64,000 nt of DNA. It comes from Bryobacterales bacterium (GTDB lineage: Bacteria > Acidobacteriota > Terriglobia > Bryobacterales > Bryobacteraceae). Numbering within the stretch: the first letter of the stretch is position 1; every line of letters begins with the position of its first letter. Positions 21,762 to 45,496 of this stretch are shown in pieces. The stretch spans positions 1 through 64,000 of the forward strand of contig CANFEY010000020.1 in NCBI GenBank assembly GCA_947446025.1, in the 5' to 3' direction. The notes under the pieces are model-generated. The model was not told the DNA's origin. It was given only the letters and a program-made list of their open reading frames with translations, and did no database searches. The position numbers and the translations under genes are program-made.

Positions 21762-21794
21762 AGTATACGAGGGCGGACCCCGGGTTGGATCTGT

Positions 21795-22493
21795 CTATTT
21801 GTTGGTGTAAACGTAGACGTGGTTGCCGCCCAGGGTGTAGCTTTCGGTGCGAGAGAAGACCCCGGAGACATCGAGGACACCGGCGTGGACAGGAACGCTG
21901 TAAAGTATCCAGACCTGGCGCGGATGCGCTGCGAGGGATTCGCGCAGGCGGTCGAGGAAAAGCCGCAGGATTGCGGCGTCGAACGGGTTGTAGAGGAAGA
22001 AGACGTTTTCCGAGGGGTCTGGGACGCGTTTGGGGGCGTCGGCTTGAATTACCTCGATGGGGGCTCGAAGCTTGCCGCTGGCTCGGAAGACTTGAATGTT
22101 CCCACGGGCTTGCGCACAGAGTTTTGGGGAAAACTCCACACCTACCACACGGGCCAACGAACTCAACTGCGCGGCAAGTAGAAGGACTCTTCCTTTTCCG
22201 CAACCCACATCGACAAAGGTGCTGCCCGGGGGTAAAGGCAGACGTTGCATCAAGTGGAGAAAAGGCCGCTCCTTGGTGGGTTGATAAGAAACTGCCCGGT
22301 CCCGGTTTTCCAGTTCCGGTTCCATGTCTGTGCGCAGGACCACGCTGCGGGTTTCCGTCCCATAACGCCAGTCGAAACCGAGATCGAGCAGCGATGAGTA
22401 GGCCACGCCGACGGTGGAGCGCAAGCCTCGCCGCCGGAAGCTACGCAAGGCCCAGGAAGAGACGGTCGTTAGCTGCACCGCAAGGGTTGGCAT
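21795..22493 (-). CDS. SAM-dependent methyltransferase
   Basis: This 232-aa class I methyltransferase has motif I TFVDVGCGKGRVL, VVGVEFSPKLCAQAR, EVIQADA and VFFLYNPFD. An N-terminal extension of about 80 residues contains an ERPFLHLMQRLPLP segment. It resembles the methyltransferase at 20229 on the other side of the hydrolase. A TATCCT hexamer lies ten bases before the ATG at 22493. Confidence 0.82.
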   Translation of the reverse strand: MPTLAVQLTTVSSWALRSFRRRGLRSTVGVAYSSLLDLGFDWRYGTETRSVVLRTDMEPELENRDRAVSYQPTKERPFLHLMQRLPLPPGSTFVDVGCGKGRVLLLAAQLSSLARVVGVEFSPKLCAQARGNIQVFRASGKLRAPIEVIQADAPKRVPDPSENVFFLYNPFDAAILRLFLDRLRESLAAHPRQVWILYSVPVHAGVLDVSGVFSRTESYTLGGNHVYVYTNK

Positions 22494-22566
22494 GGGAAGG
22501 GCCAGGATAGCGCGCGGTTCGGAAGGGTGCCACCCAACGGAGGTACTAGAACCCGACTACGTGGTC

Positions 22567-23037
22567 CTATTTGCGGGTGCGCCACATGTCAACGAGAAGC
22601 AGGGCGGCTCCGCAGAATACCGCGGAGTCGGCCACGTTGAAGCTGGGGTATTCGTAGGGGCCGATGAAGAATTGAAGGAAGTCGGTGACGGTGCCGATGA
22701 CGATTCGGTCCCAGAAATTGCCCAACGCGCCGCCCAGTACCAGGGCGAGGCCGATGGGGGTGACCGGTGTTTCGCCGGGGTGTTTGGGGCGGAAGAGCAG
22801 GTAGGCGACGATGGCCATGACTAGGCCGGAGAGTCCGATGAGTATGGTGCGGCGAATGGCGAGAGGGGCGTCGGCCAGCATGCTGAAAGCGGCTCCGGGA
22901 TTTTCGGCGTGGACGATGTTGAAGATGCCGGGGATCACCGGCACCGTGTCGAGCGCGGAAAAGTTGGTCTGGATGTAGAGCTTCGTCACGCGGTCCAGTG
23001 CGACGATGGCGGCGATGATAGCTAGACGCACTTTCAT
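22567..23037 (-). CDS. lspA: Lipoprotein signal peptidase
   Basis: This 156-aa protein has four membrane helices and the LspA signatures: ALDRVTKLYI, NPGAAFSML, GGALGNFWDRI and FNVADSAVF, including both catalytic aspartates (DRI and VADS). It cleaves prolipoprotein signal peptides at the inner membrane. The ATG at 23037 overlaps the ileS stop as ATGA, the classic ileS-lspA pair. A longer frame to 23136 lies inside ileS and is rejected. Confidence 0.94.
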   Translation of the reverse strand: MKVRLAIIAAIVALDRVTKLYIQTNFSALDTVPVIPGIFNIVHAENPGAAFSMLADAPLAIRRTILIGLSGLVMAIVAYLLFRPKHPGETPVTPIGLALVLGGALGNFWDRIVIGTVTDFLQFFIGPYEYPSFNVADSAVFCGAALLLVDMWRTRK

Positions 23038-25832
23038 GGGAACATTTCGTGCAGCGCCCCACTGCACGAATCGCACACGGTTGTGTATTTCTCGTCTTGA
23101 CCGACCGTGGTGGAGTACTTCCAGCAGCGTTCGCACTTGATGCCGTCGGCCTTCTCGACGGTGACTTGGAAGTCACCAGATTCCAGGATGACCTGCGAGA
23201 CGATGAACAGGGCGGGGAGATCCTCGGCATGGGATTCGAGGACCTGGTGATCGCCGACGGAGATGCGCAGGCGGGCTTCGAGCGGCGCGCCGATGAGTTT
23301 GGCGGCGCGGGCTTCTTCGAGGGCTTTGAGGACGGGCTCGCGGACCTGCATCAGTGCATCCCAGGCGGCGAGCTGTTCCTTCGACAAACCGCTGGCGAGT
23401 TCTTCCGGAGTGGGGAAGAGTGCCAGGTGGACGCTATCCGGTGCCTTGGCCGGCTTGGGGGTGTGCGTCCACACTTCTTCGGCAGTAAACGACATCAACG
23501 GCGCGATGAGGCGCGTCAGCGCATAGTGCACGCGATACAGCGCGGTCTGCCCGCTGCGGCGGGCGTGGCTATGGGTGGCGGAGGTGTAGAGGCGGTCCTT
23601 CAGCACGTCGAAGTAGACGGCGCTAAGGTCCGTGGTGGCGAAATCGTAGATGGCCCGGTAGACCTTGTGAAATTCAAAGGCGTCGTAGTGTACGAGGCAG
23701 CGGCGGACCACGTCTTGGGCGCGGGCGAGGATCCAACGGTCGATCTCAAGCATGTCGGAGGGGGCCACCGAATGCTTCGCGGGTTCGAAATCGGAGAGGT
23801 TGCCGAGCGCGTAGCGGAACGTGTTGCGCAACTTGCGGTAGGCCTCGATGAGACGTTCCAGGATGGTGTCACTGAAGCGGACGTCTTCGGTGAAGTCGAT
23901 GGAGGCGACCCACAGGCGGATGAGTTCGGCTCCGTATTTGTTGACCATCTTCTCGACGGCTTCGGAGCCTTTGGATTTAGAGAGCGCGTGGCCTTCGCCA
24001 TCGAGCGTCCAGCCGTTGGTGGCGCTGGCGCGGTAGGGTGCAGCGCCTTTGAGGCCCACTGCGACAAGCAGCGAACTGTGGAACCAGCCTCGGTATTGGT
24101 CGCCGCCTTCCAGATACATGTCGGCGGGCCAAGGGAGATCGTTCTTTTCGGTGAGCACGGCGAGGTGCGATGCGCCGGAGTCGAACCACACGTCGAGAAT
24201 GTCGTTCTCTTTGCGGAAGGCTTGGCCGCCGCACTTGGAGCATTTGGCGTCGGGTCCAGCGAGTTCAGCGGCGGATTGCGTGTACCAGATGTCGGAGGTG
24301 TGTTCGCGAAATTTGGCGACTACGCTGTCGAGAATTTTGCGGTCGGTGAGCGGCTCATGGCAGCCTTCGCAATAGAACACGGTGATCGGCACACCCCAGA
24401 CGCGCTGGCGCGAGATGCACCAATCCGGGCGCGAGGCCACCATGTTGGAGATGCGCTCTTCGCCCCAGGTGGGCTTCCACTTCACTTGCTTGATGGCTTC
24501 GAGGGCATTCACGCGCAGGCCGTTTTTGTCCATGCCGATGAACCATTGTTCGGTGGCGCGGAAGATGGTCGGCTTGTGGCAGCGCCAGCAGTGCGGGTAG
24601 CTGTGCTCGATTTTGCGTTGTCCCAGGAGGGCACCCGCGGCCTGCATGAGTCCGATTGCAATGGGGTTGCCTTCCCAGATGGTCTTGCCGATGAGTTCTT
24701 CGGGGAGGCGTCCGGCAGCACCTTCGGCGTGGAAGAATTTGCCCGCGCCATCGACCGGGCAGTAGACGGGCAGGCCGTTTTGCAGGCCGATGACGTAGTC
24801 TTCCTGACCGTGGCCGGGGGCGGTGTGGACGGCTCCGGTGCCTTGTTCAAGGGTTACGTGGTCGCCGAGGATGCCCTTAGAGTCCCGCTCCAGGAAGGGG
24901 TGGCGATAGATGGTGCCCTCAAGTTTCGCGCCCTCGAATTCAGCGATGATGTGGGGGGCAGACCAACCGCAGGCTTCGGCAGTGGCGTTGAGCAGTTCGC
25001 GGGCCACGATGTAGACGTCACCTGCCACGTCCACGGCGACGTAGGGGAAGCGTGGGTTGTAGCAGATGCCCAGGTTGGCGGGGATGGTCCAGGGGGTCGT
25101 CGTCCAGATGAGGCCCCAGACTTTCTTGCCTGCTAGCTTCGCATAGATTAACGCGGGGTCGGTGGTGAGGGCGAAGCGGACCCAGATGGACGGGCTGCTG
25201 TGATTCTCATGCTCGACTTCGGCCTCGGCGAGCGCCGTACGGTCATAGATGCACCAGTTGACGGGCTTCAGGCCCTTATAGACCGCACCTTTGTCCAGGA
25301 AGTCCACGAAGGCCTGCGCGATAACGGCTTCGTAGTCGGCGCTCATGGTGAGGTACGGATCTTCCCAGCGGCCAAGCACGCCTAAGCGGATGAAGTCTTT
25401 GCGTTGCAGGTCGACGTATTTCGCGGCGTATTTCCGGCACGCAGCGCGAATTTCCGCCACCGACATGCCGGCCTTCTTGCCGCCCAGTTCGCTATCGACT
25501 TTGAATTCGATGGGCAGGCCGTGGCAATCCCAACCGGGGACGTAGGGGGAATCGAAGCCCTCCATCGTTTTCAGCTTGACGATGAAATCCTTGAGCAGTT
25601 TGTTGAGCGCGTGGCCCAGGTGGATGTTGCCGTTCGCGTAAGGCGGGCCGTCATGCAGGATGTAGGTGGGGCGGCCCTTGCGGGCCTCGCGGATGCGCTG
25701 GTAGAGCCCGGCTTCGTCCCAACGGGCGAGCATTTTGGGTTCCATCTGGCTCAAATTCGCCTTCATGGAGAAGTCGGTTTTCGGCAGATGAACGGTCTTT
25801 TTTAAGTCGAAGGGCTGAGTTTCGTCGGGCAT
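23034..25832 (-). CDS. ileS: Isoleucyl-tRNA synthetase
   Basis: The protein is 932 aa from the ATG at 25832, or 938 aa from an ATG at 25850. It has the class I signatures PYANGNIHLGHALNK (HIGH) and ALSKSKGSEA (KMSKS), the WDCHGLPIE element, an editing domain and a C-terminal zinc finger with CERCWKY and CDSC. It charges tRNA-Ile with isoleucine. The shorter start matches the usual short leader before the LKKTVHLPKTDF segment. It is the first gene of an operon with lspA. Confidence 0.95.
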   Translation of the reverse strand: MPDETQPFDLKKTVHLPKTDFSMKANLSQMEPKMLARWDEAGLYQRIREARKGRPTYILHDGPPYANGNIHLGHALNKLLKDFIVKLKTMEGFDSPYVPGWDCHGLPIEFKVDSELGGKKAGMSVAEIRAACRKYAAKYVDLQRKDFIRLGVLGRWEDPYLTMSADYEAVIAQAFVDFLDKGAVYKGLKPVNWCIYDRTALAEAEVEHENHSSPSIWVRFALTTDPALIYAKLAGKKVWGLIWTTTPWTIPANLGICYNPRFPYVAVDVAGDVYIVARELLNATAEACGWSAPHIIAEFEGAKLEGTIYRHPFLERDSKGILGDHVTLEQGTGAVHTAPGHGQEDYVIGLQNGLPVYCPVDGAGKFFHAEGAAGRLPEELIGKTIWEGNPIAIGLMQAAGALLGQRKIEHSYPHCWRCHKPTIFRATEQWFIGMDKNGLRVNALEAIKQVKWKPTWGEERISNMVASRPDWCISRQRVWGVPITVFYCEGCHEPLTDRKILDSVVAKFREHTSDIWYTQSAAELAGPDAKCSKCGGQAFRKENDILDVWFDSGASHLAVLTEKNDLPWPADMYLEGGDQYRGWFHSSLLVAVGLKGAAPYRASATNGWTLDGEGHALSKSKGSEAVEKMVNKYGAELIRLWVASIDFTEDVRFSDTILERLIEAYRKLRNTFRYALGNLSDFEPAKHSVAPSDMLEIDRWILARAQDVVRRCLVHYDAFEFHKVYRAIYDFATTDLSAVYFDVLKDRLYTSATHSHARRSGQTALYRVHYALTRLIAPLMSFTAEEVWTHTPKPAKAPDSVHLALFPTPEELASGLSKEQLAAWDALMQVREPVLKALEEARAAKLIGAPLEARLRISVGDHQVLESHAEDLPALFIVSQVILESGDFQVTVEKADGIKCERCWKYSTTVGQDEKYTTVCDSCSGALHEMFP

Positions 25833-25876
25833 GAGGGGTATTCGTACCATGCTAGCAAACCTAAACCGCTTTTCTA

Positions 25877-25905
25877 TTGACAGAATCAGGCTTTCGGGCT
25901 AACAT
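25877..25905 (+). promoter_or_regulatory. Consensus promoter of the CarD gene, near-leaderless
   Basis: TTGACA (25877-25882), a 17-base spacer and TAACAT (25900-25905) are followed after eight bases by the ATG at 25914. Transcription should start within a base or two of the start codon. No SD is present. Confidence 0.7.
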
Positions 25906-25913
25906 TCCACCTA

Positions 25914-26435
25914 ATGACTTTCCAGGTTGGAGAGCGCGTGGTGTACCCCAATCACGGGGTGGCCTTAGTTGAGAACATCAGCAGCCGCGCGTTCGCCGGC
26001 CAGCATGAGCGGTTTTATCTGCTCAAGCTCCCCGCCAATTGCGCCACGGTTTGCGCCAAGGTGATGGTCCCGTTTTCGAATGTGGGCGGGTTGCGGTTAC
26101 GCAAGGTAACGCGCAACGGTGAGATGGCCCGGGTGGTGCAGTTCCTTTCGGAAGGCCGCTGCGGCAAGCATCGCGATTGGAAAGACCGCTTCAAAGACAA
26201 CACAGACAAGATGGCTGACGGCAGTCCGCTGGCGGTGGCTGAGGTGCTCAAGAGCTTGCTGGAGCAGCAGGTGACCAAGGTCCTCAGCTTCCGCGAAAAG
26301 CGCATGCTCGACCGGGCCCGGCATATGCTGATGACGGAATTGTCGACGTCGCGCGGGATGAGCGACCACGAGGCGGCGGGGGTTCTGGAGAAAGCGCTGG
26401 CGAAGGCGCAGCTGCATTTCCCGGAGGCGATGTAG
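25914..26435 (+). CDS. carD: CarD-like transcription regulator
   Basis: This 173-aa protein starts with the RNA-polymerase-interacting Tudor-like domain (FQVGERVVYPNHGVALVENI, FYLLKL, KVMVPFSNVGGLRLRKV), followed by a helical DNA-binding region (DWKDRFKDNTDKMADGSPL, KVLSFREKRMLDRARHML). CarD/CdnL proteins stabilise the open complex at sigma-A promoters such as rRNA promoters. The gene has the best sigma-70 promoter in the window and is divergent from ileS. Confidence 0.9.
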   Translation: MTFQVGERVVYPNHGVALVENISSRAFAGQHERFYLLKLPANCATVCAKVMVPFSNVGGLRLRKVTRNGEMARVVQFLSEGRCGKHRDWKDRFKDNTDKMADGSPLAVAEVLKSLLEQQVTKVLSFREKRMLDRARHMLMTELSTSRGMSDHEAAGVLEKALAKAQLHFPEAM

Positions 26436-26484
26436 GCAAGCCCTGTCCATGCCAAAGCTTCCCGGCTAACGGGCGCGAGGGCGG

Positions 26485-27144
26485 CTAGGAAAACGTTACG
26501 CCGGTGTAAAGGTCTGCGAGGGACACCGTGCAATCCAGGCTGTGGAAACGGCAGACCGCGTCGAGGCCGACGTATTCTGAGAACTCGCCCAACTCTCCGC
26601 TGGGTTTGCGTCCGTAGATTTCGACGCGGGGTTCGGTCGGAGAGATGAAGGCGTACTCTCTTAGAGACGCGATCTTGCGGTATTCGGCGGATTTGAAGCC
26701 TCGGTCGTAGGCTTCCGTGGAGGGGGAGAGGACTTCGACGACGATGGCAGGGTTGGTGATGACGTGGGTGGTTCCCTCAGCGAATTGAAGCTCGCCGCAG
26801 ACTAGAGTGACATCTGGATAGGCGTAAAGTCCACCTCTGGAGACTCGAATTTTAAGGTCACTGCCGTAGACGCCGCAAGATTTGCCCTTTAGGCCAATCC
26901 GCAATTCACTTCCAATCGCGTTTGCAAGCAGCGCGTGTGTGGGGCTGCCCCCGGACATGGCGAACATCGCGCCACGGTAGAACTCGCTCCTGAATTCAGC
27001 CTTCTCTTCAATGGCGAGGTATTCTTCGTCGGAAAGCTTGGTCTGCGGCTGGGCGGAGATGACTCCAGTGTAACGCGCTCTAGCGCCGGCCCGACGCTTT
27101 CGAGCGCACGGGAATTCTACGCGTAGCTGGAGGCGGCGTTGCAA
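26485..27144 (-). CDS. Uma2 family (DUF820) restriction-like nuclease
   Basis: The core has the Uma2 pattern: KLSDEEYLAIEEKAEFRSEF, YPDVTLVCGE, NPAIVVEVLSPSTEAYDRG and K..EYRKIASLREYAFI. This is a PD-(D/E)xK-like nuclease fold often found as solitary genes; the function is poorly known. The only standard start upstream of the core is a TTG at 27144, 27 codons before the expected start near SAQPQTKL. The true start is uncertain. Confidence 0.8.
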   Translation of the reverse strand: MQRRLQLRVEFPCARKRRAGARARYTGVISAQPQTKLSDEEYLAIEEKAEFRSEFYRGAMFAMSGGSPTHALLANAIGSELRIGLKGKSCGVYGSDLKIRVSRGGLYAYPDVTLVCGELQFAEGTTHVITNPAIVVEVLSPSTEAYDRGFKSAEYRKIASLREYAFISPTEPRVEIYGRKPSGELGEFSEYVGLDAVCRFHSLDCTVSLADLYTGVTFS

Positions 27145-27266
27145 AGCGATAGCTGAGGGCCACCAGGCTGGTGGTTTTCAGCCACCTCTCGCGGCGATGT
27201 TCCTGAGTAGTTTCTATTGTTTACCTTTGGCACGTTGCGTGCATCCGATAAGGCATGGAGGCTTCC

Positions 27267-29270
27267 ATGAAAACGGCTCTGGTATTTGCGATGCTGGCGG
27301 TTCCGGTGTGGGCGCAGAATTACGACGAAGGTGACGACCCCGAGCATGGCGTCGCGCGCATCAGCTTGCTCAGTGGCGACGTCACCGTGCAACGAGGCGA
27401 TACCGGCGAAGTGGTGGCTGGTGAGTTGAATGCACCGCTGGTGGCGCTGGACCACGTTCTGACGGGTGCGGGTGCCCGGGCGGAAATTCAGTTCGACTAC
27501 GCGAACATGATCCGGCTGGGAGCGGTGAGCGAGATCCGCATCAATGAGCTGAAGGACAACGACTACTTCATCCAGATCGCGGAGGGCACGGCGACGTTCC
27601 GCGTACTGCGAGACACGAAGGCTCGCATTGAGATCAGCACGCCGACGGTTTCGGTGCTGCCGATGGAGAAGGGCGTCTATCGCATCACGGTGCGGCCGGA
27701 CGGGGCTACCGAAGTTACGGTGCGCGACGGACGGGCCGACATCTACTCGCCGGGTGGCACCGAAACCCTACGCGAAGGCAAGACGCTGCAAGCGCGCGGC
27801 ACCGCGCAGAACCCCGAGTTCATGGTCCGCAACGCCATGGGCAAGGATGATTGGGACCGCTGGAATGAAGACCGCGACCGGGACCTCGAACGCAGCAAGA
27901 GCTATCAATACGTGAGCCGCGACATCTACGGAGCGGACGATCTCGACAATCACGGCCGCTGGGTCTACGATTCGCCCTACGGCTGGGTGTGGGTGCCCAA
28001 CGTCACCACCACGTGGGCTCCGTATCGCGTGGGTCGCTGGAGCTGGGTGAATTACTACGGCTGGACGTGGGTCAGCGGCGACCCTTGGGGTTGGGCTCCG
28101 TATCACTACGGCAATTGGTATTCGAGCTCCTACGGCTGGGCCTGGTATCCGGGCGCGGTCAGCAACCGCTACTACTGGCGGCCCGCGCTGGTCGGCTTCT
28201 TCGGCTGGGGCAATCGCAACGTCAACCTCAGTATCGGAGTCGGCTTCGGTTACGGCAACATCGGCTGGGTGCCGCTCGCGCCGTATGAGATTTACAACCC
28301 CTGGTATGGACCGCGTTATCGCAACAACACCAACGTCGTGGTGGTCAACAACATCAACATTGTGAACGTGTATCGCAATGCGCGCCAGAACGGCGGACGC
28401 GATGGGATCACCAGCGTTAACAGCGGGAACTTTGGGCGGGGGCGGGTGGATAACGTGCGCGTGACCAACACCGATCTGACGCGTGCAGGCCGGGTGCAAG
28501 GTCCCGTCCCGCTGGAGGCCTCGCGGGAGAGCCGCCGCTATTCGGAACGCGCGGCTGCGCCGGAAGCGGCGGCACGCGTGAACAACACCCGGGACCGGAC
28601 GTTTGCTACGGCGAACGTGGATCGGTCGCGACGCGGAGGCGAGGCGGCGGTTACCAACGCGCCGACGCCGGTTGTGGATCGGGGGCAGGGAAATAGGCCC
28701 GATCCGGCGACGCGCACCAATGCAGGCCGCGCGCCCACGACCTCGACGCCGAGTGCTCCGGCGGATACGGGTTGGCGGCGGTTTGATCCTGGAACGTCGG
28801 CTCCGGCGGATCGGGGTGCGGACATCCGGGCTATAGGCGGACGCAGGGAGTCCTCCGTCGTTCCGGAGAGAGCGGTGCCGGAGAGAGCCGTGGATGACAA
28901 CCGTTCGCGCAGAGCGGTGGACCCCGCGCCGCGTGTGGAGCAGCCGGTGGACACTCGTGCTCGACGGAGCGTGGAAACTGCTCCGCGGGTTTCCGCCCCG
29001 CAGGTTCCACAAGTCGACCCGCAGCAGCGTTCGCGCCGGGAGAGCCAGCCGGTGCAGATCAACCCTCCCATCGTGCGCGAGCGTGCGCCGGCACCTCCCG
29101 CGCGGCAAGAGATGCCGAGCGCGCCGGTCCGGTCGATGCCTCGCGCCGATAGCGGTGACCGGGGAGGACCAGCGCCTGCGCCTTCCGCTCGGTCGGCGGG
29201 GCGCGAACGGGGAGCAGTTCCCGCCGCTCCTGCGAACGAGGGCGGCGGGGATCGCGGTCGGCGGCGGTAG
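27267..29270 (+). CDS. Secreted FecR-domain protein with DUF6600 WYG-rich region
   Basis: The protein (667 aa) has a signal peptide (MKTALVFAMLAVPVWAQ), a FecR-like beta domain (about 30-180: RISLLSGDVTVQRGDT, FRVLRDTKARIEISTPTVSVL) and a Trp/Tyr/Gly-rich region of DUF6600 type (WVYDSPYGWVWVPNVTTTWA and repeats to WYGPRYRN). A long Arg/Pro/Ala-rich low-complexity tail follows from about 360. It is probably a cell-surface or periplasmic structural protein. GGAGG lies five bases before the ATG at 27267, which is preferred over 27255. Confidence 0.85.
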   Translation: MKTALVFAMLAVPVWAQNYDEGDDPEHGVARISLLSGDVTVQRGDTGEVVAGELNAPLVALDHVLTGAGARAEIQFDYANMIRLGAVSEIRINELKDNDYFIQIAEGTATFRVLRDTKARIEISTPTVSVLPMEKGVYRITVRPDGATEVTVRDGRADIYSPGGTETLREGKTLQARGTAQNPEFMVRNAMGKDDWDRWNEDRDRDLERSKSYQYVSRDIYGADDLDNHGRWVYDSPYGWVWVPNVTTTWAPYRVGRWSWVNYYGWTWVSGDPWGWAPYHYGNWYSSSYGWAWYPGAVSNRYYWRPALVGFFGWGNRNVNLSIGVGFGYGNIGWVPLAPYEIYNPWYGPRYRNNTNVVVVNNINIVNVYRNARQNGGRDGITSVNSGNFGRGRVDNVRVTNTDLTRAGRVQGPVPLEASRESRRYSERAAAPEAAARVNNTRDRTFATANVDRSRRGGEAAVTNAPTPVVDRGQGNRPDPATRTNAGRAPTTSTPSAPADTGWRRFDPGTSAPADRGADIRAIGGRRESSVVPERAVPERAVDDNRSRRAVDPAPRVEQPVDTRARRSVETAPRVSAPQVPQVDPQQRSRRESQPVQINPPIVRERAPAPPARQEMPSAPVRSMPRADSGDRGGPAPAPSARSAGRERGAVPAAPANEGGGDRGRRR

Positions 29271-31275: not shown

Positions 31276-31303
31276 TTACGACATAATATACGTTATCGGA
31301 AGA
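31276..31303 (-). other. dif: Candidate dif (XerC/XerD recombination) site
   Basis: Read on the minus strand the 28-mer is TCTTCCGATAA / CGTATA / TTATGTCGTAA. It has the 11-6-11 dif layout and shares an uninterrupted GTATATTATGT with the E. coli dif core. Its left arm resembles the ACTTCCTAGAA arm of B. subtilis dif. It lies near the point where + strand GC skew changes sign. The left arm overlaps the last codons and stop of the HAD gene, which is unusual for dif. Confidence 0.55.
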
Positions 31304-31892
31304 TAATGCCGGCGAGGTGTTGGCGCAGCGCGGCCGGCATGCTCTCCACTGAAACCACCCGCAGGACCTCCAACCCCGCGGCGAGTCCCGATGCGATTCC
31401 GGCTTCTGAGTCCTCTATCACCAACGGGCTGCGGACGCCCAAGCGCCCTACGGCGAGCAGGTACGGGTCCGGTGCCGGCTTCAGGTGTTGCACATCATTA
31501 CCGCAGACAATCGTGTCAAACAAAGGGAGTAAGCCGGCACGCTCGATGGGCGGGAGGATCTCGGTTTGAAAGCTGGAGGAAACCACCGCCATGCGGTACG
31601 AACCGGCTAACTCGCGCAATAGGCCGAGCGTCTCGGCCAAGAACGGCGGATGTTCCTCTAGACCCTGACGGAATAGCGCCTGCTTCCGCGCGACGGCTTG
31701 GGCGGGCTCCGGTAACTTCAAGCGCTGAGCGACGACTGGGTCGGCAATTCCAACGCATTGCTTGAGGTATTCTTCCCAAGTGAATTGAATTCCATAGGGT
31801 TCCAGGACCGCATTCCAGCTCGTGTGATGCACACGTTCCGTGTCAGCCAGGACTCCGTCGAAGTCGAACAAGAGGGCGTCGGGCTTCCTCAC
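31293..31892 (-). CDS. HAD-superfamily phosphatase/phosphoglucomutase-like
   Basis: The GTG at 31892 overlaps the preceding stop as GTGA and gives a 199-aa protein with all four HAD motifs: LFDFDGVLADTE, VVSSSFQTE, LKPAPDPYL and VIEDSEAGIAS. The small helical cap (WNAVLEPYGIQFTWEEYLK) is that of the beta-phosphoglucomutase/sugar-phosphatase group. It probably acts on a phosphorylated sugar. It is coupled to the M48 protease gene. The last four codons lie in the dif-like sequence. Confidence 0.85.
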   Translation of the reverse strand: MRKPDALLFDFDGVLADTERVHHTSWNAVLEPYGIQFTWEEYLKQCVGIADPVVAQRLKLPEPAQAVARKQALFRQGLEEHPPFLAETLGLLRELAGSYRMAVVSSSFQTEILPPIERAGLLPLFDTIVCGNDVQHLKPAPDPYLLAVGRLGVRSPLVIEDSEAGIASGLAAGLEVLRVVSVESMPAALRQHLAGIIFR

Positions 31893-33250
31893 TTGGTGAA
31901 CTGGAAGCTCGCGACTACGTCGTCGAAGGCTTTCTGGGTCGCGGCCCACTCGGATTCGGGGGAGATGAAAACGATGTAGAACAGCGCCTCGGGCCGGGCG
32001 ATGGTAAGCAGCATGTCGATCTCGCGCTGGCCGTTGAACGGCGAGGGGCTCTCCATCGGCGTCAGGCGCGCAGGCTGGCCGCCCACCCTGACCGATTTCG
32101 CATTGGCCGTCTGCTTCACCTGGCTCGCCTGGAGCTGCTTCACCAGATCGGCGGTATCGCGCTGGAGGTTGCCGCGGCCGTCCTGCGGGAAATAGTAGGA
32201 CGTCATCAGGCCATAGCCGATGGCACTGCCTTGCTGGCTTTGCACGACGCCCGCGCGCGGGGCAATGGTGACAGAGGGCGAGTTGGGGTCGCCGAAGACC
32301 TCCCAGTTATCGGGATAGCTGAGGACGAAATCGGGCCCTTGGTGCTGGCGATATTTCCCGGAAGGGAGCGGGTTTGGGGTTCCCTGCCCGCCGCCTGTCT
32401 GCGGAGCGATCGGCTTGGGGGGCGGCGGAGGCGGCGGGAGTCCGGCGACAAGCTGCTTCACGCGCGGCAGCGCGGCGGCCTCTGGCTCACTGAACGCTTT
32501 CTTGGGGAGCAGCTTGTTCTGGTCGTTCACGTACTTCACACGGTTGCCCGGTGTGGGGTGGTCCGACATGAAGTTCGCGAGCTTGCTGTTGTCGCCGCCG
32601 TTGGGGCCTTCCAGCTTCTGGAAGAAGGCGGCCATCTGCGTGGGATCGTAGCCGGCGTCATGCATGATTTGCGCGCCGTTGAGGTCGGCGTCCTGCTCGG
32701 CACCGCGTGAGTACTTTAGCAACAAGGACTGCGCGCCGAGGCCGATGCCAAGCTGACCGAGCGTGCCCCAAATGCCTCCCTTGTTACCGAGCATTTGGCC
32801 GCCGAGCATGGCCGGCAGTTGAATGACGTTCGCCTTGGAGACATTGCTTGTTCCGTGCCGGAGTGCGACGTGCGAGATTTCGTGCGCCAGCACTCCGGCG
32901 AGCTGCGATTCGTTGTCGAGCGAGGCGAGCAGGCCTGTGTGGACGAACATCGGGCCACCAGGGAGCGCGAAGGCGTTGATGCTGGGGTCGTTGACGACTT
33001 CAAAGGTGTAGGGGTAGCCGCCGGCGCGCTTGGACTTGGCGAGGCGGGCTCCGATGCGGTTGACGTAGGCTGTGAGTTCGGCGTTGTTGAGCACCGGCAT
33101 GGTCTTGCGGACCTCGTCGGCGGACTCCTTGCCGAGTTGGACGTCTTGCTCCGGTGAAAAGAGGTTGAAGCGCCCGGGTTTGAATTCCTTGAGCTTGGGT
33201 TCGGCGGCGAAAGCGGATGCCGCAAGCGCACCGAGGATGAAAAGTCGCAT
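31889..33250 (-). CDS. M48 family metalloprotease
   Basis: This 453-aa exported protein (signal MRLFILGALAASAFA) has a BepA/LoiP-like M48 domain: FALPGGPMFVHTGLL, the zinc motif VLAHEISHVALRH and EQDADLNGAQIMHDAGYDP with the third ligand Glu. A Pro-rich linker (GLPPPPPPP) leads to a C-terminal domain of about 150 residues. These proteases process or degrade misassembled outer-membrane proteins. The ATG at 33250 has GAGG eight bases upstream; ATG 33262 is an alternative. Overlapping stop/start couples it to the HAD gene. Confidence 0.87.
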   Translation of the reverse strand: MRLFILGALAASAFAAEPKLKEFKPGRFNLFSPEQDVQLGKESADEVRKTMPVLNNAELTAYVNRIGARLAKSKRAGGYPYTFEVVNDPSINAFALPGGPMFVHTGLLASLDNESQLAGVLAHEISHVALRHGTSNVSKANVIQLPAMLGGQMLGNKGGIWGTLGQLGIGLGAQSLLLKYSRGAEQDADLNGAQIMHDAGYDPTQMAAFFQKLEGPNGGDNSKLANFMSDHPTPGNRVKYVNDQNKLLPKKAFSEPEAAALPRVKQLVAGLPPPPPPPKPIAPQTGGGQGTPNPLPSGKYRQHQGPDFVLSYPDNWEVFGDPNSPSVTIAPRAGVVQSQQGSAIGYGLMTSYYFPQDGRGNLQRDTADLVKQLQASQVKQTANAKSVRVGGQPARLTPMESPSPFNGQREIDMLLTIARPEALFYIVFISPESEWAATQKAFDDVVASFQFTK

Positions 33251-33319
33251 GAGTGGCCTCATGGGTACGATTCTCTCACAGGGGGAAACGCTTCGTCTCT
33301 TCCCGGCGGCTCCGTCACG

Positions 33320-33535
33320 TTGGCCGTTCCTCCGGTCCTGTTGGAAGTGCTCAATTTGGAGGCTGGATCGCAGGTCACCGTCGGTATCGAACGCGGACAA
33401 CTGGTCGTCGAACGCAAGACGCGCCGCCGCTATACGCTGGCAGAGCTCCTAAAACAGTGCGACCCCAAAGCCCGCCGATCCTCCGAAGAGAAACTGTGGG
33501 TGGCTAACAAACCGGTTGGGCGTGAGTTGCTCTAA
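33320..33535 (+). pseudogene. MazE/ChpS-like AbrB antitoxin, N-terminus displaced
   Basis: From the TTG at 33320 the frame encodes 71 residues that match the ChpS/PemI antitoxin pattern: LAVPPVLLEVLNLEAGSQV, IERGQLVVE, RRYTLAELLKQCD and the closing VGRELL. The preceding bases encode the conserved GGSVT in the same frame, but no start codon lies upstream of them. An ATG at 33261 reads toward it in a frame that would need one extra base near 33300-33305. Either a TTG start gives a truncated protein or the 5' end is frameshifted. Its stop overlaps the toxin ATG. Confidence 0.65.
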
Positions 33536-33876
33536 TGAAACGCGGGGAGATTTGGCTGGTAGGACTCGACCCAACATCGCGACACGAGCAACAGGGGCGG
33601 CGGCCAGTGCTGATCGTTTCGCCCGAGGCCTTCAACCGCCTCACCCAGGTGCCCGTGGTGGTACCCATCACCAGTGGCGGGAATTTCGCGCGCATGGCCG
33701 GCTTCGCCGTGCCGCTTGCGGGAACCAAGACTACAGGCGTCGTGCGCTGCGATCAGCCTCGTGCAGGTCTTGGCCAAGCTTGCGCCGCTCTTCGAGCAGC
33801 CAATAACAGCGAATTATCGCGCTATAATGGTGCATGCTCAAGGCCACCGAGAAGATCTGGCATAACGGAACGCTGA
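33535..33876 (+). pseudogene. MazF/ChpB toxin with internal deletion and frameshift
   Basis: The first 80 residues are a clear MazF/ChpB start: MKRGEIWLVGLDPTSRHEQQ, RPVLIVSPEAFNRLT, VPITSGGNFAR and TTGVVRCDQPRA. The family's C-terminal VLAKLAPLFE appears only about 20 bases later and in another frame (ending near 33796), so roughly 20-27 codons between them are missing. The original frame then runs out to 33876. The missing part contains core MazF structure, so the toxin should be inactive. The region also houses the ilvE -10 box. Confidence 0.8.
33823..33828 (+). promoter_or_regulatory. -10 box TATAAT of ilvE, leaderless arrangement
   Basis: A consensus TATAAT ends five bases before the ilvE ATG at 33834. 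No convincing -35 is present and there is no SD. The box lies in the remnant 3' end of the broken toxin gene. Confidence 0.5.
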
Positions 33877-34757
33877 TTCCGTGGAACGAAGCCAAGATCC
33901 ACGTCCTATCCCACGTGCTGCATTATGGCAGCTCCGTTTTTGAAGGCATCCGCTGCTACGATACTCCGGCCGGACCCGCGATTTTCCGGGGACCGGAGCA
34001 CATGCGCCGTCTGCTGGATTCGGCCAAGGTGTACCGCATGGCGGTCCCCTACAACGTCGACCAACTTGTGCGCGGCATGCACGAGCTTGTGAGCGCGAAT
34101 AAGATGACGTCGTGCTACGTGCGTCCGCTGGCGTTCCGCGGCTACGGCGACCTGGGCGTGCTGCCCACCAAAGACACCCCGATCGAAACCTACATGGCGT
34201 GCTGGGAGTGGGGCAAGTATCTGGGTCCCGAGGCCATGGAAGAGGGCGTGGACGTGTGCATTTCCAGCTGGACGCGCATCGCTCCCAACACGCTGCCTGC
34301 CTTAGCGAAGGCCGCGGGCAACTACTTGAACTCGCAGTTGATCCGCATGGAGGCGCACGCCAACGGGTACGCCGAAGGCATCGCATTGGACGCGTCGGGC
34401 TATATAAGCGAAGGCTCGGGCGAGAACATTTTCGTGATCCGCGACGGCAAGATTACCACGCCTCCGCTGGGCGCGAGCGTGCTCCCAGGCATCACGCGCG
34501 ATTCGGTGATGACGCTGGCCCGCGAACTCGGCTTCATCGTGACGGAAGGCCTGGTGCCGCGCGAAGCGCTCTACTTGGCCGACGAAGTCTTCTTCACCGG
34601 CACCGCTGCCGAGGTCTCGCCCATCCGGTCGGTGGATAAAATCCCCGTCGGCACGGGCAAGCGCGGGCCGATTACAGAGAAGATCCAGTCTGCATTCTTC
34701 GATATTGTCGAGGGGCGTGCGGCGGACAAGCGCGGCTGGCTTGTGCCTGTGAAATAG
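33834..34757 (+). CDS. ilvE: Branched-chain amino acid aminotransferase
   Basis: This 307-aa fold-type IV PLP enzyme has HVLHYGSSVFEGIRCY, YVRPLAFRGYG, the lysine region NYLNSQLIRMEAHANGY, GYISEGSGENIFV, PGITRDSVMTLARELG and DEVFFTGTAAEVSPI. It interconverts Val, Leu and Ile with their 2-oxo acids. The length is standard and the gene is intact. It stands alone, with no other ilv/leu gene in the window. Confidence 0.94.
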   Translation: MLKATEKIWHNGTLIPWNEAKIHVLSHVLHYGSSVFEGIRCYDTPAGPAIFRGPEHMRRLLDSAKVYRMAVPYNVDQLVRGMHELVSANKMTSCYVRPLAFRGYGDLGVLPTKDTPIETYMACWEWGKYLGPEAMEEGVDVCISSWTRIAPNTLPALAKAAGNYLNSQLIRMEAHANGYAEGIALDASGYISEGSGENIFVIRDGKITTPPLGASVLPGITRDSVMTLARELGFIVTEGLVPREALYLADEVFFTGTAAEVSPIRSVDKIPVGTGKRGPITEKIQSAFFDIVEGRAADKRGWLVPVK

Positions 34758-34966
34758 GGGCGCAAAAAAGATCCGCGCGGGAACCAAACCCCGTGGCCAC
34801 CTCCCCCGAGACTGACACACTTGATCCGGCCCGCGCGAAACTCTGTATCAGTTTTATCAGGACGCGGGTTCGATGGGAAGAGTAAAGTCGCGTTTTCCTG
34901 CAACTGAATCTGCTTTAGAATCGGGCGTTTAACGGGGTCCCTCTGTTGGTAACCTGTGTATAAAAC

Positions 34967-35959
34967 ATGCAGCTCACAAAATGTGCGGACGGGACGTGGC
35001 TTGCGCCAGGATTTATCGATCTTCAGGTGAACGGTTTCGCGGGCGTAGACTACAACTCGCCCACGGCTCCCGCGGAAGAAATCTCGCGTTCTCTTCGCAT
35101 CATGTTCTCCACCGGAGTCACGCAGTGCCTGCCGACGGTGATCACAGGGTCGCCGGAGAATATGCTGGGCGCGCTGCGGAACCTGGCTGGTGTGGACCAT
35201 GCAATGATCGCCGGCTTCCACGTGGAGGGCCCGCACATTTCACCCGAGGATGGCCCGCGGGGCGCGCATCCATGGCGCTGGGTGCGGTCGCCCGAAGTGA
35301 GTGAGTATCGCCGCTGGCAGGACGCCACCGATGGCCGCATCAAATTAGTGACGTTGTCGCCGGAGTGGCCTGAAGCTCCGCGCTATATTGAAACGCTGGT
35401 GCGTGACGGAGTTGCCGTGAGTATCGGACACACGTCGGCCACTGCGGCGCAGATCACTGACGCAGCCAGCGCCGGGGCGACACTTTCCACGCACCTCGGC
35501 AACGGAGCCCACGCTTCGCTGCCTCGGCACCCGAATTACATTTGGGAGCAGCTTGCCGAGGACCGCTTGAGTGCGAGCTTCATCGTGGATGGGCTGCACT
35601 TGTCCGACACGTTTCTGCGCGTCGCGCTGCGTGCCAAGGGGATTGCCCGCAGCGTACTGGTGACGGATGCGGTAATGCCCGCGATGTGCGCGCCGGGTCC
35701 GTACATGCTCGGCGAGGTCGAAGTGGAATTGAAAGACGACCAACGAGTTGTATTGCGCGGGGGCACGCGTTTGGCAGGGTCGAGCCTGCGCATGGATCAC
35801 GCGATCTCAAACGTCATGCGCATCGCCGCCGTGAGTTTGGAAGATGGGGTCGCGATGGCGACGGCAAACCCGGCGCACATTGTCGGAATCGAACCGCGCG
35901 GGAGGGTTCGATTCCGAATGGAGAACGAACAAGTTCAGGTTATCGAGACGCAGCCGTGA
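34967..35959 (+). CDS. nagA: N-acetylglucosamine-6-phosphate deacetylase, short N-terminus
   Basis: This 330-aa amidohydrolase has the NagA motifs APGFIDLQVNGFAGVDYN, FHVEGPHIS (metal Glu), SIGHTSAT, STHLGNGAH and VTDAVMPA (catalytic Asp). It deacetylates GlcNAc-6-P in amino-sugar recycling. It begins just before PGFID, so the N-terminal strands of the small beta-sandwich (about 40-50 residues in E. coli NagA) are missing; an in-frame TAA at 34961 precludes a longer start. It may be a natural short form. No nagB or transporter is adjacent. The preceding 209 bp holds no gene that I can see. Confidence 0.85.
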   Translation: MQLTKCADGTWLAPGFIDLQVNGFAGVDYNSPTAPAEEISRSLRIMFSTGVTQCLPTVITGSPENMLGALRNLAGVDHAMIAGFHVEGPHISPEDGPRGAHPWRWVRSPEVSEYRRWQDATDGRIKLVTLSPEWPEAPRYIETLVRDGVAVSIGHTSATAAQITDAASAGATLSTHLGNGAHASLPRHPNYIWEQLAEDRLSASFIVDGLHLSDTFLRVALRAKGIARSVLVTDAVMPAMCAPGPYMLGEVEVELKDDQRVVLRGGTRLAGSSLRMDHAISNVMRIAAVSLEDGVAMATANPAHIVGIEPRGRVRFRMENEQVQVIETQP

Positions 35960-36679
35960 GGATTACGGAACGTTGCTATGCGGTGCCGGCCTCGCCTACG
36001 CTTTACCGTGGATGGTAAACGCAGGCTTCATCGTCCGAGAAGAAGAGACGCTGGTCGTGGATACCGGAGCCAACGCCCTCGCGGCCGCCACCATTCACGG
36101 GTACGCGACGGCGGTACGTCCGGAGAATCGCCTTCGCGTCGTCAATACCGAAAAGCACTTCGACCACATTGGCGGCAACGGCTTCTTTCACGAACTCGCG
36201 GTGCCTATACACGGACACTCCGGCATCGCGCGGACTTCAGCGGTATTTGCTGACGAACGATCCGGGGTTCACCCCGCGTTCCACTACGGGACTCCGCTGG
36301 TCAATCCAGGCGCTACGCTCCCAGCTGTTTTTGAACTCGGCTCGTGCAGAGTGGAGGTTCTTCTCACGCCGGGCCACACACCCACCAACATTTCTTTGTA
36401 TGTGCCAGAGGAAGGCGTAGTCTATTGCGGTGACTGCCTGACAGTTTGTACGCGCCCAACCTCGACGCGACGGACGGCCTTGCGGATTGGAAAATCTGGC
36501 TCACGTCCCTGGATCGGATTCAGGCTCTCTCGCCGCAAGCCATCGTGTGCGGCCATGGCCCTGTGGTGCGCGGCGAGAATGTGGCCCAGGCCATCGAGAG
36601 GGTACGCGAGGCGCTCTATCAGCGAGTCGCGGAGACCTTGGCGATTACAACCGCCGAACCCGACGACATCGATTCGTAG
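35956..36679 (+). pseudogene. MBL-fold hydrolase with two frameshifts
   Basis: Three frames are needed to read this protein. GTG 35956 starts RITERCYAV. From about 35980 a second frame gives AGLAYALPWMVNAGFIV, VVDTGANALAAATIHGYA, VINTE-type NTEKHFDHIGGNGF and LLTPGHTPTNISLYV to GDCL. From about 36440 a third frame gives YAPNLDATDGLADWKIWL to VCGHGPVVRGENVA and a stop at 36679. Each junction corresponds to one lost base, and neither is in a long homopolymer, so these look like real mutations. The end overlaps the convergent cytochrome remnant by 61 bp. Confidence 0.8.
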
Positions 36680-38225
36680 TAGCCGACCATGCGCTTCGGC
36701 TCCATGGAATCGTACTTCTTCAGGTTTTCATTCCAGCGGAACGAGATGGGCTGAAAGTACAACTCGGCGTCGACGTTGAACGGGCCTTGCGCGGTTCCGG
36801 TTGCAACCGAGTAAGTCACGCGGTCGCCGCCGCCTTGGAAGTTCGCGTCCGTCGAGGCCGTACCCTTCACGCCGATTTCATCGTCAGCCGTTGCCTTGTT
36901 GAAACCCTTCGGCAACATGCGATTATCCTTCTCATAGCGGACCGCGTTCAGCAGTCCCGTGGTGGGCTTGCCGGCGGAGTCGACCATGATGCCCTCATAG
37001 ATCTGAACCTGATCAGGCGTAGTGATCTGGGCGTAATGCGGCTCGTACTTGAGCGCGTCGATGTCGTTGTCGTTGCCGGTGATCGAGCCGTTCGGGTTGA
37101 TCGCTCCCGATTCGAATACGGTGTTGCCGTTACGGTCCTTCACCGTCACATGCAGCCAGCTGCGGCGCGACGGATATGCCGTCGGAAACTTGTGGCCGCT
37201 CAGGTTCTCGATGGCGAGTTCCACATCGAGACGTCCGTTGGCCGTCTGCGTGCTGGCAACGGTCAGCTTCGCGGTCTCCGACTGCAGGTGTTTCACCGTG
37301 CGGTCGGCTGCGTTCTCCATCTCGGTGGGCATGGCGGGCACACCCATTTCGACGCGGTATTTGCCCAGCACGCGCTGCATGAAGAAATTGCCTCCGATGA
37401 AGGTGTGTTGGCCGAGCTCCTCACGCTTTCCCCGAGGGTCCGCGTGATCGGGGTATCTTTCACCGACGGCATGTGGCAATTCTGGCAGCTCTTTTGTTCT
37501 TTGTAGTCGCTGTGGAGCCATTCCTGATACGGCATCTGCTCCGGCAGTGAGCCGATGACCTTGCCGTCAGGACCAAGAGCCTGTGTAATCAGCGTGTGGC
37601 AAGTGGCGCAGAGTTCGGACTTGCGGACATGTTCGCCTTCCGTCGGTTTCCACCCGCCGGAGGACGACATCATGATGGTCTGGTGGCCTTCGTCAATTTT
37701 GTAAGGACCATACACCGCCTTCTCACCCAGCGGCTTGCTGGTATCCACAACGAAGCGGCCCACCAGGCTTTCGCGGGTTCCGAGTTTTTCCGGCGTGATT
37801 TGGTGGCACAGCGAACAGGACACCCCGTCCGCAGCCAACTTGTCTTCGGCGCTATCCCCCACGGGAGGCATGTGGTTGAAGGCGGTGCCTTCCCTGCCCT
37901 CCGAATGGGCCTGATAACGCGCCATCGGCATGTGGCAGATGGTGCATTCGTCTTCGATAAGCTTCACGGACTCAGGATGATCGATGGCTTCGCGCCGCAC
38001 GCCCGCCATCCAATACGGATCGCGGCCCGCGTTCGCCATCATCGATGTACGCCAGTTGAGGCCGATGGAAACATCTTGCCCTTGGGGCGTGTAGAGATTG
38101 TTGTGGCAGGCAAAACACCGGTCCGAAGTTTGGAAGTGCTGGACCGTCTTGTCCTTGCTGTGTAATACGGACGTGGCCAACCCGAAGATAGCGGCGAACA
38201 GTGCGAAAGAACCTAGCAGTTTCAT
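36619..38225 (-). pseudogene. Pentaheme c-type cytochrome with a frameshift
   Basis: The ATG at 38225 opens a protein with a signal peptide and five CxxCH heme sites: CFACH (37-41), CTICH (94-98), CSLCH (137-141), CATCH (206-210) and CQNCH (247-251). After TPITRTLGE (about residue 265, near 37430) the conserved sequence (KREELGQHTFIGGNFFMQRV, then a beta-rich C-terminal domain with ENLSGHKFPTAYPSRRSWLH) continues in another frame to the stop at 36619. One base is missing in or near CGGGGAAAG. The family is the cytochrome c554-like multiheme proteins of periplasmic or extracellular electron transfer. It follows the cytochrome-barrel gene by 4 bp. Confidence 0.83.
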
Positions 38226-38229
38226 GCGC

Positions 38230-39387
38230 CTATCTCCACCCTTCCGTGAACTTCCCGTCGAACATATCCCACAGCAAGTAAGTGATCAATTGCGATTGCC
38301 GCGACCCTACGTTCATCACCGGCACTCGATAGCCGATGCCGATCCGCATGTGCTGCCGCTTGCTGATGCTGAATTGTATCTGCGGCACCAAGTCCAGCGT
38401 CCATCGCTCACGCGGCCCGAACTCGCGGATGCCCACAAATTCATTGGCCACGTTGAACAGCCGCCCGTATCCCTTGTCGAAATTGAATGCCTTGCCTACG
38501 GCTGTACGGGTGTAAATCTCGGCCTTGGTGTCGTGCCTACGAAACGGCGGACCCTCAAACCCGAGCTGCGTTTGAATGTAGGATTTCTTCGGTAGCACTT
38601 GCCCCAACGACAGAAACGATTCGTACTTGGTGATGCCGTTGCCCATGCCGCGCCGCGAATCGCCAGTAGGCAGTGTAATCTCGTTACCCCAGGCCAGCAG
38701 CGTTCCCGACTTGTTATTGAGATACACGCTCTTCTTCAACTCAAAGCTGGTGTCGCCCACACCGCCCATCCACGTGCCGGCTCCGTCCTGCTTGAGTTGG
38801 CCGCGAAAGCGCAGCTCGATGTTCGTCTGTGCTCCGTAACGTTTTTCCACGATCAGGTGGTTGGTCAGCCCCGGCGTTCCGTCGGTGTTGATGAACACCA
38901 TGTTGACGGCTTCGTCTTCGGGAAACGACTTTTCCGTGAACATGGGCCGGGCAAAGTTGAATTCGCCGGACGGCCACTTGTCTTTTTCTTCGCAGAAACT
39001 GCGCACGAACTGGATCACCTTTTCGATCTCGTCGTCGGTCAGCGCAGGATTATTCTCTGGCCCGAATGAAGGCATAATGGTTGTGAATGCGCGAATGCCT
39101 CCTCCGCGGTGAATCACCGAGCGCCACTGCAGGTTTGACTTGCGCGTTGATCCGCTACAGTCCGTGAAGTCTGGAAATGTGTACGGCGGCTCAAAGCCCA
39201 ACACGTGCTCGGGCTGTCCTGAGCCATCCGGCGCGTGGCACCCGGCGCAGGTGGCCTGGAAAATCTGCTCGCCGGTGGCTAAGCCCAGCTCTTTCGCGGT
39301 CTGCGCCTGCGCTGAAGGCTACAGGAAGGCTGCTGCGCACAGCGCAAACAACACGTGCAATCCTTGTTTCAAAGGTCTGAAAGACAT
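38230..39387 (-). pseudogene. Cytochrome c / beta-barrel fusion with amber stop in the signal peptide
   Basis: From ATG 39387 the frame reads MSFRPLKQGLHVLFALCAAAFL, then TAG at 39321-39319, then PSAQAQTAKELGLATGEQIF and CAGCH (47-51). The class I cytochrome c domain continues to TTIMPSFGPENNPALTDDEI and IQFVRSF. The same frame then enters about 240 residues of alternating hydrophobic strands (TNIELRFRG, SFELKKSVYL, AEIYTRTAV, WTLDLVPQIQFSI) ending KFTEGWR, which looks like an outer-membrane beta-barrel. The layout recalls Cyc2-type fused cytochrome-porins, though sequence relation is not shown. Only the single TAG interrupts 385 codons. Confidence 0.78.
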
Positions 39388-39439
39388 GCGAGCCCAAGAA
39401 TAGCAGGACGAGTAGCGCGGCCTGCGGGATTACAAGAGA

Positions 39440-39916
39440 TTAGCCGAAAATCCGCCTAAAGAAGGGGCCGAATTGCAGGTGTTTCCCGGGGCAACGCTGC
39501 CACGGAGCGAAGCTGATCATGCCGCTGGACCGCTCCACCCATAGTCCGAATGGCTGAGCGTTTGGATAAGTGCCCTCAAAGACAACGCCGCTCTCACAAT
39601 AATCGATGTTCTCGAATTTCAGCGCGGTGAGATTTCCGTACTGGCCGGAGGGTCCCCAATCTTCCTTGAATTTCTCCAGGGGATAGTAGCGGCACGGCTT
39701 TTCGGGCGTACACCACATCCGGTACGCCTCTTCATATTTCTTGTCTTCGAGGGCGCTGAGGAAGGCGCTGACCGTACGCTCCTGGCTCCAGGTGCGGAAG
39801 TAGAAAAAGGCCGCGACCAGAAGCAGAACCGACGGGAGCCCGATGAAGAGGACCCGTTTGATCCAGCGCCAGCGTTGCTCCTCACCGGCCCCGTAGCCTT
39901 CCATGTAGCAGGCCAT
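39440..39916 (-). CDS. Membrane-anchored conserved hypothetical protein
   Basis: This 158-aa protein has one membrane helix (VLFIGLPSVLLLVAAFFYF, about 22-41) and a small extracytoplasmic domain (TVSAFLSALEDKKYEEAYRM, PLEKFKEDWG) like the NTF2/DUF4878-type fold. The function is unknown. AGGAG lies nine bases before ATG 39916. It ends 12 bp after ompH begins its run and may be co-transcribed with it. Confidence 0.7.
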   Translation of the reverse strand: MACYMEGYGAGEEQRWRWIKRVLFIGLPSVLLLVAAFFYFRTWSQERTVSAFLSALEDKKYEEAYRMWCTPEKPCRYYPLEKFKEDWGPSGQYGNLTALKFENIDYCESGVVFEGTYPNAQPFGLWVERSSGMISFAPWQRCPGKHLQFGPFFRRIFG

Positions 39917-39928
39917 GGCGCGAAGCTC

Positions 39929-40432
39929 CTATTTTGCGGGATGGGCGGCGTTGTAGGCCGCGATGGCTGCGTCGGTGACGTCCAGCGTGGGTCCGTAGAA
40001 GTGCAGCGCGGTCGTATCCGCGATGATGTCCAGCCCCTTTTCCGCCGCGACCTTCTTCAATACGTCGGTATAGCGGGTGGTGACCACGCGAAGCGCGGCG
40101 TCCCGGTCAGCCTCGAAGTCTTCTTGCAGATCCTGGGTGAGCCGGTCCACGGTTACCTGGGTACGCTGACCTTTGGCGTTCAACTCCGCTGTGCCTGCCT
40201 GGCTCAGTTGGCCCTGCGTAGCGCTCAATTGCGCCTGGATGTCCTGAAGCGTCTGCTGCGCCTTCTGCAGCTGGTCCTGCTTGGGTTTGTACTTGGCTTC
40301 CAACTCAGCGTAGGCCTTCTTGAATTCCGCGCTATCAACCACGGCGCGCTGGAAATCGATGACACCGACCTTTTGGGCCATGGCGGGGGCTGCCATCACG
40401 ATGGCGGCAACCAGGGGAAGAACGAAACGCAT
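39929..40432 (-). CDS. OmpH/Skp family periplasmic chaperone
   Basis: This 167-aa protein has a signal peptide (to MAAPAMAQ), KVGVIDFQRAVVDSAEFKKA, a long coiled coil (ELEAKYKPKQDQLQKAQQTL and onward) and a closing segment KGLDIIADTTALHFYG. This is the Skp/OmpH jellyfish fold that holds unfolded outer-membrane proteins. bamA and lpxD, its usual neighbours, are not here. Confidence 0.87.
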   Translation of the reverse strand: MRFVLPLVAAIVMAAPAMAQKVGVIDFQRAVVDSAEFKKAYAELEAKYKPKQDQLQKAQQTLQDIQAQLSATQGQLSQAGTAELNAKGQRTQVTVDRLTQDLQEDFEADRDAALRVVTTRYTDVLKKVAAEKGLDIIADTTALHFYGPTLDVTDAAIAAYNAAHPAK

Positions 40433-40467
40433 GTGTGTAAAACTCCTTCGAGAGACTTTTCTCTATC

Positions 40468-42459: not shown

Positions 42460-42485
42460 AAGGCTCCGGCGCAACTCTCAATGTT

Positions 42486-42514: not shown

Positions 42515-42522
42515 AGCAGGAA

Positions 42523-43446: not shown

Positions 43447-43449
43447 CGG

Positions 43450-44646: not shown

Positions 44647-44653
44647 TGGACGC

Positions 44654-45495: not shown

Positions 45496-45496
45496 A

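Follow-up and report, generated by a model that had tools for sequence, protein, structure and literature searches.

The window, the whole stretch of DNA analyzed here at its full length of 64,000 nucleotides, corresponds to bases 1-64000 of contig C20 (65,607 bases) in a draft genome of 4.43 Mb, 120 contigs, and 99.88% completeness. It contains a 28-base site that is almost certainly the chromosomal dif of a soil acidobacterium of the Bryobacteraceae (Acidobacteriota), at which recombination is predicted from sequence, together with neighboring genes and several copies of GGGNAGGG, the KOPS word of E. coli. The features referred to throughout are as follows:

6859..28690, + strand: five KOPS-like GGGNAGGG words (at 6859, 11658, 14090, 22494, and 28683), pointing toward the putative dif
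27255..29270, + strand: gene for a FecR/DUF6600 protein, on the other side of the putative dif from the genes below (family search and relatives)
31276..31286, - strand: predicted XerD arm, TTATGTCGTAA, with inner TTATGT and outer five bases CGTAA
31287..31292, - strand: predicted central region, CGTATA (family consensus CGNATA)
31293..31303, - strand: predicted XerC arm, TCTTCCGATAA, containing the final codon and stop of the HAD gene
31293..31949, - strand: gene for a HAD-family hydrolase (Pfam HAD_2, 1.1e-25), extending into the putative dif; a homologue lies near dif in relatives
31889..33400, - strand: gene for an M48 peptidase, a recurring neighbor (family search and relatives)
32382..62488, - strand: six KOPS-like GGGNAGGG words (at 32382, 37892, 42858, 42863, 51944, and 62481), pointing toward the putative dif
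33834..34757, + strand: gene for a class IV aminotransferase, a recurring neighbor (family search and relatives)
34967..35959, + strand: gene for an amidohydrolase, NagA-like by eye, a recurring neighbor (family search and relatives)

A putative dif site overlapping the end of a HAD gene

Direct inspection of the minus strand from 31303 to 31276 gives TCTTCCGATAA/CGTATA/TTATGTCGTAA, that is, two 11-bp arms with partial dyad symmetry around a 6-bp center, the 11-6-11 layout of XerCD dif sites. At ten of its 11 positions, the XerC arm agrees with the most frequent base in a profile of 52 related sites, the exception being the outermost position, with T for A. The inner TTATGT of the XerD arm is invariant across the profile sites, whereas its outer five bases (CGTAA, 31276-31280) differ from the MAACT of the family, as they do in several congeners. 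The HAD gene ends with the codon CGA and the stop TAA, and this stop (31295-31293) falls inside the XerC arm. Both the site and its unusual overlap with the HAD stop had been pointed out in a preliminary description of this DNA, and both are present exactly as described there. A PemK/MazF-like toxin gene also lies near dif (33535-33876), where it overlaps the start of the aminotransferase gene.

Uniqueness and conservation

An 18-base core searched with up to three mismatches had one match in the window. In the whole draft genome, a 16-base core gave one perfect match and two matches with three mismatches, compared with four matches for the reversed control, and 31303-31276 is the sole close dif match in the 4.43 Mb. 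A family profile, the kind of scoring suggested by the preliminary description, was derived from 66 distinct rows, rows too close to a contig end having been excluded beforehand, by leaving out the window itself, 8 rows whose record titles name other phyla, and 5 that lack ATATTATGT. The window site scores 29.6 bits on this profile; the best score elsewhere was -3.4 in the window and, over 800 kb taken from 20 further contigs of the same genome, -1.4. The profile is biased toward conserved sites, since these were gathered with core patterns, and the window site ranks below all 52 training sites (lowest 35.9 bits) because its outer five XerD-arm bases depart from the consensus.

Matches to a 20-mer core with up to three mismatches were found in 58 of 150 family genomes, including the one studied here, and in none of the other 92. 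As the reversed 20-mer matched 14 of the 150 (manual count), some of the 58 must be chance matches. Within the genus, the core was matched in 19 of 23 genomes and in 14 of the 15 good ones (own genome included in both), and the control in 0 of 23. Among the 52 sites, conservation is limited to the 28-bp positions, give or take one base: information content is about 2 bits over CCGATAA and ATATTATGT and at background level outside the 28-mer. The family consensus is CTTCCGATAA-CGNATA-TTATGTMAACT. The outer XerD arm, mostly MAACT across the 52 sites, is variable within the genus, possibly in step with changes in XerD, with CGTAA in the window, TGCAT in G089, and CTTGT, CTCAT, or AATAC in further genomes, while other congeners retain AAACT, TAACT, or CAACT.

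The order FecR/DUF6600, dif, HAD, M48, aminotransferase, and amidohydrolase recurs in parts among relatives. In a neighborhood search of 138 sequences, many of them overlapping and some non-acidobacterial, HAD homologues were present at 10 distinct dif loci and FecR homologues at 20 (manual count). The HAD stop lies less than 100 bases from dif at four of seven measured loci, at one of which it overlaps dif as in the window; at an eighth locus, the HAD gene is on the opposite side of dif. The orientation of dif relative to the HAD gene varies among loci. At L027, L028, and L032, dif is flipped relative to the adjacent HAD gene when compared with the window, as if small terminus inversions had occurred.

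The chance that these 28 bases merely resemble a dif site by accident is negligible. The diverged outer XerD arm is all that speaks for it, but the score of 29.6 bits compares with a best of 18.9 bits in random sequence (ten 44.3-Mb sequences, 443 Mb in total), the core had no match in 100 shuffles of the window, and the same neighbors recur in relatives. The same diverged arm could instead belong to a mobile element that uses the Xer system (IMEX), with the site being an attachment half-site and the element lying on the low-coordinate side. Known IMEX sites are described as diverging in one arm or in the center (PMC5357621), and the outer XerD arm of the window both differs from that of the family and varies within the genus. 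However, the genome contains no other close match to the dif core, and the half that would have been lost, ATATTATGTMAACTW, is absent from C20 at up to two mismatches; across the genome it has three matches (on C7, C9, and C104), each with two mismatches, against four for the control. The genes on the low-coordinate side, as far back as position 25.9 kb of the window, also look ordinary (PEP-CTERM, GSDH, FecR/DUF6600, Uma2, and CarD), and relatives have a FecR homologue close to dif. We therefore reject the IMEX explanation, which we regard as very improbable, in favor of a chromosomal dif.

Recombination machinery and predicted function

The genome encodes XerD (353 bits, above the cut-off of 329.6) and a second recombinase, with XerC as its best-scoring family, at 307.6 bits and thus below the curated XerC cut-off of 335.15. 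The R and HxxRH motifs of the Xer recombinases were located by pattern search, and the final H and Y by eye. One FtsK gamma domain is encoded, on C14 (95.3 bits). The system resembles that of E. coli in its 11-6-11 layout, its single copy, the presence of genes for two Xer recombinases and FtsK gamma, and the convergence of KOPS-like words on dif in relatives. It differs in the family consensus and in the genus-variable outer XerD arm, and it is known here by sequence. Predicted dif sites have been reported for 641 organisms from 16 phyla, Acidobacteria among them (Kono et al. 2011, PMC3025954).

What the analysis shows directly is a unique and conserved site, genes for the machinery that would act on it, and the convergence of GGGNAGGG on dif in relatives. 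In the mechanism that we propose, FtsK would load at GGGNAGGG-type words, which in the vicinity of dif are oriented toward it on both flanks, and would pump DNA at the closing septum until both dif copies of a chromosome dimer come together. It would then activate XerD at TTATGTCGTAA, and XerC would finish the exchange at TCTTCCGATAA, resolving the dimer into two circles. We infer from the sequence that binding and strand exchange take place and that the divergence of the outer XerD arm leaves this copy functional.

GGGNAGGG words converge on dif

In the window, 11 of the 12 GGGNAGGG words point to dif, the exception being at 14967 on the minus strand, to the left of dif. The eight such words listed in the preliminary description are all present, although the one placed at 32384 begins at 32382, and four had been missed (11658 and 14090 on the plus strand, 42863 and 62481 on the minus strand); its statement that all but one point inward stands. 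Since 41 other words made up of six Gs, an A, and an N also point inward in 367 of 451 cases (81%), the words of the window alone prove little, being confounded with skew.

The relatives are more informative. Within 20 kb of dif in 10 of them, GGGNAGGG points inward in 70 of 83 cases, compared with 1102 of 2282 for the control words, with the right flank of G032 opposing the rule (4 plus to 1 minus). When 51,246 words were ranked by polarity toward dif in 12 relatives (725 kb, net GC skew -0.005), GGGNAGGG, which had not been chosen beforehand, was the most polarized of all, at 90 to 15, with the overlapping words GGNAGGGA and GNAGGGAA (the latter with flanking A's) coming next. CANCAAGG is likewise polar toward dif in the 12 relatives (79 to 26), but in the window, where 10 of 19 point inward, it is not.

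The relative KBS 96 has almost no skew, and on its 6,690,628-base scaffold dif (560,856) and dnaA (3,809,571) are separated by 48.6% of the circle. Here, GGGNAGGG is found 36 times on the plus strand and 8 times on the minus strand across the 560 kb to the left of dif and, among the matches listed, 0 and 11 times, respectively, in the 176 kb to the right. Among these matches, the best polarity split lies between 532,824 and 566,833 and so brackets dif. A direct check of the sequence stretches that contain 16 of the 55 word positions recovered all 16 and no extra words there. Beyond 400 kb from dif, little or no polarity remains (14 to 8; 34 to 33 for a wider word set).

In a second relative, F-183 (AP025252.1, G064:C1; a 6,182,012-base contig), dnaA is at base 10 and dif at 4,610,941. 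The two are thus not opposite each other, dif being at 74.6% of the circle. Five 20-kb stretches sampled over the arc that runs from 4.8 Mb past the contig end to base 20,000 have all 15 of their GGGNAGGG words on the minus strand, and the long arm is mixed, with 16 plus to 11 minus in 14 sampled 20-kb stretches between 0.6 and 4.52 Mb. For the two ends of the contigs of the genome studied here, GGGNAGGG polarity is concordant in 11, discordant in 2, and undecided in 7 of 20; because the wider word set gives 8 to 7, this coherence was not used as evidence.

GGGNAGGG has been described as the KOPS of E. coli, Vibrio cholerae, and Pseudomonas aeruginosa (PMC5357621, PMC6199493), and the 8-base word and its orientation toward dif are identical in the Bryobacteraceae. 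The family departs from those species in that polarity in KBS 96 is pronounced no further than about 400 kb from dif, does not track GC skew in F-183, and extends to GNAGGGAA words. Taken together, the single copy, profile score, genus conservation, Xer and FtsK genes, position in KBS 96, and GGGNAGGG polarity make the identification of dif and of a terminus-proximal window well supported. The work provides a usable dif consensus and KOPS word for a family known here mostly from metagenome assemblies, which should allow contigs from the terminus to be recognized in fragmented genomes without recourse to GC skew.

GC skew is a poor guide to the terminus

GC skew on the plus strand of the window declines in a nearly straight line, starting at about +0.2 and ending at about -0.15 (r = -0.993 for overlapping windows of 10 kb), and its cumulative maximum is at 36,069, 4.8 kb from dif. 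The switch from an excess of G to an excess of C noted in the preliminary description is therefore real. It had been taken to mark the replication terminus independently of dif, which we consider unlikely. A fall in skew between the 20 kb on either side of dif is evident in the window (+0.154) and, among 12 relatives, is clear in three, namely F-183 (+0.133), G124 (+0.103), and G128 (+0.096). In F-183, moreover, skew is negative in six of six stretches sampled over the arc between dif and 0.32 Mb. Against this, skew clearly rises across dif in four relatives (G142, -0.127; G149, -0.118; G027, -0.105; and G032, -0.251) and changes by less than 0.05 in the other five (G041, G034, G007, G089, and KBS 96), so that a single G-to-C switch specific to dif is not seen across these relatives. 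F-183 has further falls from positive to negative, away from dif, at ~4.31 and ~4.41 Mb. In the genome studied here, where reading covered the window (the sole contiguous falling limb), the two 20-kb ends of 20 other contigs, and some loci of 3-4 kb, seven contigs (C1, C3, C5, C6, C7, C16, and C17) also go from positive to negative, one (C12) goes from negative to positive, and 12 keep the same sign, with values ranging from -0.164 to +0.133.

In the window, the fall thus looks like part of a local alternation in skew, as one of its downward limbs, rather than independent proof of a terminus, and alternation of this kind within the family makes whole-genome cumulative skew, the check proposed in the preliminary description, doubtful as a test for the terminus here. 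Of the original terminus interpretation, the dif site and its terminus-proximal location stand on conservation, single copy, neighbors, KBS 96, and converging GGGNAGGG words, and the argument from skew does not. Here, KOPS is a good witness of the location of dif and skew is a poor one.

A sawtooth skew in F-183

The alternation is most apparent in 471 contiguous kb of F-183 (4,200,001-4,670,950; loci L055, L209-L228, L056, L147, and L148), where skew swings between about +0.2 and -0.2 about every 65-125 kb. Measured in 10-kb windows, rises from below -0.1 to above +0.1 take 6.3, 11.0, and 7.8 kb (near 4.26, 4.35, and 4.48 Mb), and falls from above +0.1 to below -0.1 take 22.5, 25.8, and 23.8 kb, the third of these being at dif. 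A shallow fall and rise at 4.53-4.55 Mb, including a weaker rise near 4.55 Mb, stays under the threshold. GC and AT skew are anticorrelated in 20-kb stretches (r = -0.89 in F-183 and -0.72 in the genome studied here). The standard deviation of skew in 20-kb stretches is 0.116 in F-183 and 0.076 in the genome studied here, compared with 0.023 in KBS 96, which lacks the sawtooth.

Gene strand can be rejected as the cause of the skew in F-183, as plus- and minus-strand genes agree in the sign of their third-position skew in eight of eight teeth (in one, only -0.01 for minus-strand genes) and the fraction of plus-strand coding sequence does not track the teeth. Recent inversions are disfavored because an inversion would turn both the control words and KOPS, whereas in the three negative teeth to the left of dif the control words follow skew (133 plus to 843 minus) and KOPS is unreversed (11 plus to 5 minus; p ~1e-6). 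Tooth by tooth, KOPS numbers 1 to 2, 4 to 1, and 6 to 2, and the wider word set 6 to 3, 9 to 4, and 10 to 7. No sequence shared among the three rises was found by self-BLAST (matches longer than 150 bases), whose two hits were local tandem repeats situated outside the rises, and the rise zones contain no strict DnaA box (TTWTNCACA). The genes at the rises, as recognized by eye, presumably include gyrA, ruvB, and leuS.

Some Bryobacteraceae chromosomes might have an N-shaped skew with a period of ~65-125 kb that reflects many zones of replication initiation or some other repeated process that treats the strands unequally, for instance local re-replication or the repair of breaks, alongside one dif, although we judge this to be improbable. 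If it were so, rises of 6-11 kb and falls of 23-26 kb would be independent of gene strand and KOPS, and the window would be one falling limb. With three rises and three falls in one genome, we offer the sawtooth as an observation. Among the matches listed from the open-licence literature, no title or beginning of an abstract reported a sawtooth GC skew in bacteria; a Helicobacter paper (PMC7551074) contains both "GC skew" and "saw-tooth." In a 2018 survey, chromosomes showing "multiple alternating GC-skew domains" were excluded on the view that they had been rearranged or might have more than one origin (PMC6199493). That description also fits F-183, but here the rises are short and the falls long, and the KOPS words remain unreversed through the alternation, unlike what recent inversions would produce. 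KOPS polarity and GC skew are uncoupled in this chromosome, with a bearing on why the two usually coincide.

Elsewhere in F-183, the sign of GC skew and that of GGGNAGGG polarity both switch between stretches sampled at 0.3-0.9 Mb, rather than at dnaA, and the origin of this chromosome may therefore sit away from dnaA, a reading that rests on few words.
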